Source: an uncultured delta proteobacterium
Lineage (GTDB): Bacteria > Myxococcota_A > UBA9160 > JAFDET01
Reading direction: 5' to 3'
NCBI GenBank assembly: GCA_947259215.1
Contig: CAMYLJ010000011.1
Location: 50,037-114,036, forward strand
DNA: 64,000 nt
Positions 6,826 to 27,579 of this stretch are shown here, in pieces (within the stretch, counting starts at the first letter, position 1; each line of letters opens with the position of its first letter). The notes beneath the pieces are model-generated. The model had not been told where the DNA came from. It saw only the letters and a program-made list of their open reading frames with translations, and made no database searches. The position numbers and the translations under genes were made by a program.

Positions 6826-8457
<1,632 letters not shown>

Positions 8458-25854: not shown

Positions 25855-25905
25855 GTGCGCACGAGAGCTCCCGGCTCCTCGTCGCAACTGAGGGAAGAGG
25901 ACGAA

Positions 25906-26527
25906 ATGCGGATCAGACGTCTCCTACGCCTCCTGGTGATCGCGCTCGCGATCGTGACCGCGCGGGCGGAGCACGCGGCAGCCATCTCCGTGACGGTCGC
26001 CGGGACCACCTACGACCTCACCGCGTTCGCCGACACCGTCATCTCCTTCAACTTCCAGGGCACCTTCGGAGGGGGAGCCACGGTCATCGGTCAGGCCGTC
26101 CTCGGGCCCAATACCGAGACCTATGCCGACTTCAAGCCGGCCACGGCGGGTCAGTACATCCAGGTCGGGTTCACCGAACATGATCGTCAACGATCCCGGG
26201 AACGACATCGCCGTGTACGACCTCTTCGTGGAGACGGATGAGTTCAACCTCTCCCTGACCCTGGGCGGCACCAGCGTCAACGCCACGATCGTCGACACCG
26301 GATTCGTCAACGCGAACGGCCAGGCGATCACCGTCGCGTACTTCGACCTGACCGACCTCGGCGTCGCCGCCGGCGCCAGCATCACCTCGCTCTACGTGAA
26401 CTCGCCCAAGAGCACCGAGCTGGCCGTCATCGGCTCGCTGAACGGCGTCGTGGTTCCCGAGTCCTCCACGCTCCTGCTCCTGTTCTCGGGACTGCTGGGG
26501 TTGATCTGGGCGGGGCAGCGGCCGTAG
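25906..26527 (+). pseudogene. PEP-CTERM-like exported protein with a +1 frameshift
   Basis: ATG 25906 begins a signal peptide (LLRLLVIALAIVTARAEHAAA), followed by a beta-rich secreted domain. The frame breaks near 26176: frame 1 reads through YIQVGFT and then turns to Arg-rich nonsense ending at 26241, while frame 2 picks up at once with NMIVNDPGNDIAVYDLF and runs to 26527. Skipping one G at 26176 restores a continuous protein of about 206 residues. It ends VVPESSTLLLLFSGLLGLIW and AGQRP, a PEP-CTERM-like sorting signal with PES for PEP. Assembly error or true frameshift cannot be told apart here. Confidence 0.7.
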
Positions 26528-26576: not shown

Positions 26577-27101
26577 ATGCGCGTCATCGCAACCGCCCTC
26601 TTCCTGCTGTGCAGCGCCGGAATCTCGGCCGCGGAAGCGCTGGCGCCGGGGTCCAAGGCGCCGCCGTTCTCGCTGCTGGGGTCCGATGGGCGCACCCACA
26701 CGCTCGCCGAGTACGCCGGCAAGCAGGCCGTCGTGCTGGCCTGGTTTCCGAAGGCTTTCACCCCCGGCTGAAGCGAGGAGCTCAAGGCGCTGCGTGACAG
26801 CGCCGACGCCCTCGCGGCCTTCGACGCCGCCGTCTTCATGGTGAGCCTGGACGAGCCCGAGAAGAACCGCGCCTTTGCCAAGGAGCTCCAGGCGCGCCAC
26901 GTCCTGCTCTCGGACCCCGGGGGCGAGGCCGCTCGCGCCTACGGAGTCACCGCGCTCGGCGGCCTGTACGCGCGCCGCTGGACCTTCTACATCGACGCGG
27001 AAGGCATCATCCGGGAAATCGACAAGGACGTCGACGTGCGCTCCGCGGGCCAGGACATCGCCGGCAACCTGGCGCGGCTGGGATTCCCGAAGAAGAAGTA
27101 G
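26577..27101 (+). CDS. Exported selenocysteine peroxiredoxin
   Basis: One frame runs from ATG 26577 to 27101, interrupted only by TGA at 26769-26771. A signal peptide (MRVIATALFLLCSAGISAAE) precedes an AhpC/TSA domain: KAPPFSLLGSDGRTHTLAEY, WFPKAFTPG, TGA, SEELKAL, and later FYIDAEGIIREIDKD. In peroxiredoxins the residue after F-T-P-G is the peroxidatic Cys, so the UGA sits exactly at the catalytic position (residue 65), as in known PrxU-type selenoproteins. A SECIS-like hairpin follows 15 bases later. The mature protein has no Cys, so it would be a one-Sec enzyme needing an external reductant. A plain nonsense mutation is unlikely, because the downstream codons are intact to the normal end. 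Confidence 0.85.
26786..26804 (+). promoter_or_regulatory. Bacterial SECIS-like hairpin
   Basis: A perfect 7-bp stem (ggcgctg 26786-26792 with cagcgcc 26798-26804) holds the 5-base loop CGTGA. The loop begins 22 bases after the UGA and contains G and U, which matches the distance and loop needs of bacterial SECIS elements that recruit SelB. It lies inside the coding region, as expected. Confidence 0.65.
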
Positions 27102-27111
27102 GCGCTCGTGG

Positions 27112-27579
27112 TCAGATTGCCCGCGACGGGCCCGGCGGCTCGCCCGGCCGGCGCAGCATCTTCTCCACCTCACCGATGTGCTTGGTCTCGTCGCTGATCA
27201 GGCGACGCGCGTACTCCTCGAGCAGGATCGAACGGCCGTCCACCAGCGCCAGCAGCTCGCGGTAGACGTCGAGGCCGGCGGACTCGTGCTCCAACGATTC
27301 CCGCAGGATGTCGCCGACGTCGTGGCTGTGGCTCCCCAGCAGCTTCCCGATCCCGAGGGAGGGATGGCCGCCGAGCTGGGTGATCAGCTCTCCCGCCTCC
27401 TGGGCGTGGAGCAGCGACTCGCTCGCCTGCCCCTGGAGCCAGGACACGATCGGAATGCGTGTGTAGCCGGACACCATGAAGGAGTAGTGCGTGTAACGGA
27501 CCACCCCCGCCAGCTCGATCTCGAGGATCCGGTTCAGGATCGATGCGGCCGCTTCTGTGTCGAATCCGGTATCGGTCAT
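27112..27579 (-). CDS. Bacterioferritin-like iron storage/ferroxidase protein
   Basis: The 155-residue four-helix protein has ferritin-type metal ligands: Glu in RILEIELAGVVRYTHY, the E-x2-H pairs in ESLLHAQEAGEL and SDETKHIGEVEKML, and Glu in ESLEHESAGLDVY. These form a di-iron ferroxidase site. It is convergent with the selenocysteine peroxiredoxin (10 bases between stops), so the two sit together as oxidative-stress functions without sharing a transcript. The length matches bacterioferritin. Heme binding cannot be judged with confidence. Confidence 0.85.
   Translation of the reverse strand: MTDTGFDTEAAASILNRILEIELAGVVRYTHYSFMVSGYTRIPIVSWLQGQASESLLHAQEAGELITQLGGHPSLGIGKLLGSHSHDVGDILRESLEHESAGLDVYRELLALVDGRSILLEEYARRLISDETKHIGEVEKMLRRPGEPPGPSRAI

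Follow-up and report, generated by a model that had tools for sequence, protein, structure and literature searches.

A bacterial peroxiredoxin gene with a selenocysteine UGA at the peroxidatic position and a predicted export signal

The locus and its interrupted frame

Our analysis of the window, the whole 64,000-nucleotide stretch of DNA considered here, centers on a plus-strand frame of 174 codons that opens with ATG, closes with TAG, and is interrupted in frame only once, by a TGA directly after F-T-P-G (Table 1). Translation with table 11 breaks this frame into open reading frames of 64 amino acids (26577–26771) and 87 amino acids (26838–27101); recoding of the UGA thus implies that ordinary gene finders would split the gene, as an earlier note on this DNA had anticipated. 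That note had also placed the TGA, as the sole interruption, at the position of the peroxidatic cysteine, and both the frame and the PF00578 motif bear this out. Coding sequence is conserved on either side of the UGA, a criterion for selenoprotein genes. On the sequence evidence assembled below, the UGA is best read as selenocysteine (Sec65) and not as a stop, and the frame as a genuine selenoprotein gene from a bacterium of Myxococcota type.

Table 1. Coordinates of the features of the selenoperoxiredoxin gene in the window.
Feature	Position	Strand	Remarks
Sec-peroxiredoxin coding sequence, UGA recoded	26577..27101	+	ATG to TAG, 174 residues including U65; Pfam and orthologues
Probable N-terminal export signal, about residues 1–22, MRVIATALFLLCSAGISAAEAL	26577..26642	+	Hydropathy; cleavage site approximate; holds the sole Cys (Cys12)
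Pro58 codon, first residue of P-x3-T-x2-U	26748..26750	+	Invariant column P58, alignment A2
Thr62 codon, active-site motif	26760..26762	+	Invariant column T62, alignment A2
Selenocysteine UGA codon (U65 of PxxxTxxU), where peroxiredoxins have the peroxidatic Cys	26769..26771	+	TGA or Cys codon in 62/62 orthologues
Bacterial SECIS hairpin	26786..26804	+	Stem GGCGCUG/CAGCGCC, 7 bp; loop CGUGA, G then U at loop positions 2–3
Arg134 codon, candidate conserved active-site Arg of peroxiredoxins	26976..26978	+	Invariant column R134, alignment A2

The gene is flanked upstream by a gene on the same strand (26123–26527), whose C-terminal end, VPESSTLLLLFSGLLGLIWAGQR, looks like a PEP-CTERM sorting signal and whose frame is seemingly split with 25855–26241. 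Downstream lies a convergent ferritin-like gene (27112–27579, minus strand; Pfam Ferritin, 61 bits), which is not conserved beside the orthologues.

A hairpin maintained through codon choice

The perfect 7-bp stem pairs 26786–26792 with 26798–26804 and begins 15 bases past the TGA, and folding confirmed this hairpin and its G/U-containing loop as the earlier note had described them. By itself the element folds with −12.1 kcal/mol, an energy equaled by 2 of 200 shuffled sequences, and it also forms within a 53-nucleotide context (−27.1 kcal/mol, z −2.6). Its folding energy alone beats chance only modestly; what makes the SECIS identity decisive is the comparative data, not folding alone. Passages of PMC13188914 set out criteria for bacterial SECIS elements, namely an apical loop of 3–9 nt, an upper stem of 4–16 bp, a G as first or second loop nucleotide with G or U after it, a spacing of 16–37 nt, and a minimum free energy of at most −7.5 kcal/mol. 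The hairpin lies within every one of these limits: its loop has 5 nt and its stem 7 bp, the second loop nucleotide is a G with a U after it, the loop is 21 nt away from the UGA, and the energy is the one given above. An Rfam search of the whole window returned nothing above threshold, as expected for a SECIS, since the bacterial elements are too variable.

Codon choice provides the stronger argument. Codons +6 to +10 read [GT]CG CT[GC] CG[TG] GA[CG] AG[CT] in all 44 orthologues that carry TGA, and the arginine codon in the loop is CGT or CGG in every one of them. The commonest arginine codon elsewhere in the same genes is CGC (144 of 352), which is also what the cysteine orthologues mostly use at the loop position. 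The SECIS core with a CG[UG] loop thus occurs in 44/44 TGA orthologues vs 1/18 cysteine orthologues, and 2000 synonymous redraws with the genes' own codon usage kept core and loop in a mean of 0.9, and a maximum of 5, of the 44. Covariation across the stem scores 0.224, as compared to 0.088 after shuffling, with 25 doubly changed cells, although the sequences are related and shuffle counts are accordingly not probabilities; a slid-structure control scored far lower than the true stem. Compensation is visible at stem pair 19–35, which is G-C, U-A, or U-G among the orthologues, and at the loop-closing pair, where three TGA orthologues from beyond the window's class (L049, L082, and L083) have C-G in place of G-C, with CTC and a glutamate GAG replacing leucine CTG and aspartate GAC. 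This last swap may stem from one change passed on by shared descent.

The same constraint can be turned into a search. Run over 80 genomes of the order, a DNA pattern consisting only of TGA and the SECIS core matched at 33 sites. All of these lie in the Sec-peroxiredoxin gene, and the genomes that contain them are precisely the 31 that have a TGA orthologue; the reversed control pattern found 0. The tight core CGCUGCGKGACAGYG, at a fixed distance from the UGA, hence constitutes a DNA signature with which the family can be found directly. Taken together, synonymous constraint and covariation strongly support reading the hairpin as a SECIS; what the earlier note had called SECIS-like now falls within the published limits, is conserved through codon choice in every TGA orthologue, and shows compensatory changes.

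Orthologues and selenocysteine machinery across the order

How widespread is the recoded gene, and does the machinery accompany it? Among 62 distinct orthologues, 44 have TGA at the Sec65 codon and the other 18 have TGC or TGT. The survey of 80 genomes of the order placed a TGA orthologue in 31 and a cysteine orthologue only in six more, and TGA orthologues occur elsewhere in the phylum as well as in Gammaproteobacteria and Verrucomicrobiota. The tree of the orthologues requires four changes between selenocysteine and cysteine; one cysteine clade (L023, L027, L078, and L079) is nested well within the selenocysteine branch and has lost the hairpin, and selB was found in none of the three genomes, 67–92% complete, of genus g15, the source of L023 and L027. 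As a separate observation, one orthologue (L029/L095, G004:C1:1712894) matches in frame only from about residue 51 onward, which may reflect a frameshift in that assembly.

In the window's genome, a 5.7-Mb draft in 128 contigs that is 95.7% complete, all four genes that the earlier note had proposed looking for are present: selA (505.5 bits), selB (269.5 bits, above cut-off and within a 650-codon open frame), selD (323.6 bits), and selC, the tRNA-Sec (73.7 bits, anticodon tca). Across the order, selB exceeds the cut-off in 27 of the 31 genomes whose orthologue carries TGA vs two of the six with cysteine only (nominal Fisher p 0.013), bearing in mind that these genomes are drafts and absences of machinery genes are soft. 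Counting tRNA-Sec only at 60 bits or above, we found it in 25 of the 31, and either selB or tRNA-Sec in 30; the remaining genome, G075 (76% complete), is the only one with neither above threshold. Weaker tRNA-Sec matches of 48–52 bits were discounted, the family cut-off being passed also by the controls Caulobacter vibrioides and Thermus composti. Conversely, G024 and G056 carry the cysteine form and keep the Sec machinery. Codon and machinery thus go together across the order, in an association that is not perfect.

A code in which TGA is reassigned genome-wide to an amino acid, or read as cysteine or tryptophan, is the least credible alternative and was rejected: nothing was found in its favor, TGA is the commonest stop and terminates 12 of the window's 18 likely genes, as an ordinary stop in an unreassigned code would, a standard tRNA-Sec stands beside selA, selB, and selD, and the orthologues have cysteine, never tryptophan, at this site. 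A coarse scan of the window for TGA-interrupted frames also flagged one at 6826 (minus strand), which we judged to be an ordinary gene end followed by an open frame; the threshold of that scan missed 26577–27101 as well, and the scan is hence not exhaustive.

Hardly more credible is a pseudogene, in which the TGA would be a recent nonsense mutation or a sequencing error in a cysteine peroxiredoxin. Cysteine orthologues do exist, and a single step leads from TGC or TGT to TGA, but 44 distinct orthologues, spread over at least three phyla, share this TGA, and the hairpin is kept in all 44 through codon choice. The earlier note had named two observations that would count against a selenoprotein gene, close relatives with neither a cysteine nor a selenocysteine codon at this position and a degenerate downstream part. 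The first was looked for and found in 0 of the 62 orthologues. As to the second, purifying selection acts downstream of the TGA as it does upstream, with codon positions 1 and 2 changing about half as often as position 3, which argues that the downstream part is translated and selected. With the recurrence of the TGA and a conserved downstream frame, the pseudogene reading was rejected.

Other genes of the window's genome bear in-frame TGA codons too. Its SelD (L108, G000:C5) has a UGA-encoded selenocysteine of its own, in LVPAGGUARK (translation residue 22), implying that UGA recoding in this genome is not confined to a single gene. Two further peroxiredoxin paralogues have TGA at the peroxidatic position (L104, G000:C14 near 76761, FTPGUTLEA; L105, G000:C9 near 246, WTPTUSQEV), and many thioredoxin-fold matches across the order likewise bear one TGA. 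The TGA codons in the paralogues and the thioredoxin-fold matches suggest a large selenoproteome. For annotation, the selenoperoxiredoxin gene confirms a class of genes that standard pipelines break in two, in an order most of whose genomes carry the Sec machinery.

Family, export and proposed mechanism

The read-through protein matches Pfam AhpC-TSA (PF00578) with 103.9 bits, as compared to a gathering cut-off of 26, and P58, T62, U/C65, and R134 are all invariant across alignment A2. An AlphaFold model (pLDDT 93.9) has a thioredoxin-like peroxiredoxin fold, for which the best Foldseek matches in the PDB are Bcp1 (3drn) and AhpE (1xxu and 4x1u), at E ~1e-14 and TM-scores to the target of 0.85–0.89; a sequence-profile search likewise returned Sulfolobus Bcp1 (3drn) and mycobacterial AhpE as the nearest solved structures. 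By sequence and predicted fold, the protein is a PF00578 peroxiredoxin nearest to Bcp/PrxQ and AhpE. It scores 37.4 bits against the NCBIfam PrxU model NF040737 and 71.7 bits against the Bcp model PRK09437, as compared to curated cut-offs of 270 and 140, respectively; for the other aligned members, too, these two models match best. The comparison with PrxU-type selenoproteins that the earlier note had suggested therefore has a divided outcome: the protein falls outside the PrxU equivalog (37.4 of 270 bits) and within the broader TxxU Sec peroxiredoxins.

The N-terminus reaches a hydropathy maximum of 2.5 over 11 residues, and on this basis the protein is likely exported via an N-terminal signal. 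A hydrophobic stretch precedes the domain in 55 of 58 full-length family members, with little else conserved there. Two distant selenocysteine members, L082 and L083, have lipobox-like N-termini (LAAAC and TAAAC) and may be lipoproteins. Selenoproteins outside the cytoplasm are already known, among them the Tat-exported formate dehydrogenase and the periplasmic NiFeSe hydrogenase. The earlier note's view of an exported selenoprotein as unusual thus holds insofar as the signal is likely, but exported selenoproteins as such are not new. It is conceivable that the protein, though a true selenoprotein, never leaves the cytoplasm or remains in the membrane as an uncleaved anchored form, its N-terminus being no working signal peptide. 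The support for export comes from hydropathy, and L032, L070, and L072 are weakly hydrophobic at the N-terminus with the starts chosen, yet the hydrophobic stretch recurs in nearly the whole family, where little else is conserved, and the lipobox-like sequences of L082 and L083 lie in that same stretch; we consider either of these outcomes improbable.

Cys12 is the only cysteine of the protein and lies within the predicted signal region, leaving none in the predicted mature part. The earlier statement that no cysteine remains is thus correct for the mature protein and needs amending for the precursor. With no resolving cysteine in the mature protein, the Sec65 protein answers in this respect to the description of a one-Cys peroxiredoxin with an AhpE-like mechanism. 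The same holds more widely for the UTxEL type, in which 33 of 34 full-length selenocysteine members lack a cysteine past the signal region, while in a UTxEC type, whose members come mostly from outside the window's class, a cysteine at +4 could act as the resolving residue.

In light of these data, we propose the following model. SelB would bind the hairpin that closely follows the UGA and bring Sec-tRNA(Sec), and the UGA would be read as Sec65. The product would be exported by its N-terminal signal sequence, which would be cleaved, with the periplasm as the enzyme's probable destination. With Pro58, Thr62, and Arg134 activating it, the Sec65 selenolate would reduce peroxide there and become a selenenic acid. 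Since the mature protein has no cysteine and hence no resolving residue, the selenenic acid would need an outside thiol, conceivably a small one or that of a thioredoxin-like protein in the periplasm, in a one-Sec mechanism. Beyond the gene's own overlapping frames and one genus-level block, the orthologues have no conserved neighbors, so that no operon partner presents itself as a candidate reductant. The recoding, the SECIS, the family, the active-site residues, and the lack of another cysteine in the mature part are strongly supported by sequence comparison, and we hold the account as a whole, a selenocysteine-dependent peroxiredoxin on the Bcp/PrxQ–AhpE side that is likely exported and would be reduced by an outside thiol, to be very probable.

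The alternative that survives best, though still unlikely, concerns function: the protein may depend on selenocysteine without being a general peroxidase, its peroxiredoxin fold serving instead, in the periplasm, as a redox relay, sensor, or repair enzyme. The lack of a resolving residue and of a conserved neighboring gene that could provide a reductant would fit such a role, but P, T, C/U, and R of the peroxiredoxin active site are all invariant, which favors a peroxidase.

What is the relevance of a peroxidase built in this way? If export holds, one may ask how reduction is achieved for a Sec-only peroxidase outside the cytoplasm, and why the window's UTxEL branch lacks the possible resolving cysteine of the UTxEC type. 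We speculate, at slightly under an even chance, that the gene represents an unnamed, widespread branch of exported selenoperoxiredoxins with selenocysteine as the only redox-active side chain of the mature form. The enzymes of such a branch would be periplasmic peroxidases that dispense with disulfide chemistry in an oxidizing compartment and are regenerated by a periplasmic reductant.

Bcp/PrxQ, represented by Sulfolobus Bcp1 (3drn), provides the closest solved structure by both sequence profile and fold, but the PrxQ resolving cysteine at +5, present in L041–L043, is missing from the window's protein. PrxQ is normally cytoplasmic. AhpE of Mycobacterium tuberculosis (1xxu, 4x1u), a 1-Cys peroxiredoxin regenerated by mycothiol/mycoredoxin, shares a similar fold, 34–35% identity, and a single catalytic residue, which is cysteine in AhpE and selenocysteine here. 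PrxU of Eubacterium acidaminophilum (NF040737) likewise has selenocysteine at the peroxidatic position, but the window's protein lies far below the cut-off of that family. The TxxU Sec peroxiredoxins (PF00578/COG1225) are a long-described bacterial family, to which, by its sequence features, the window's gene belongs; PMC2398784 counts 253 such sequences in the Global Ocean Sampling set, and the class is listed in passages of PMC9312934 and PMC13188914 as well. The open-access text and keyword passages covered contain no description of an exported, otherwise cysteine-free Sec peroxiredoxin branch, which is weak evidence, and the passages of PMC2398784, PMC9312934, and PMC13188914 make no mention of export for the class; a Sec peroxiredoxin of this kind appears to be little described. 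The window's protein shares with the TxxU class the PF00578 domain, TxxU with selenocysteine at the peroxidatic position, and a bacterial SECIS directly downstream, and its clade differs in the predicted N-terminal export signal and, in the UTxEL branch, in a mature part with no other cysteine.
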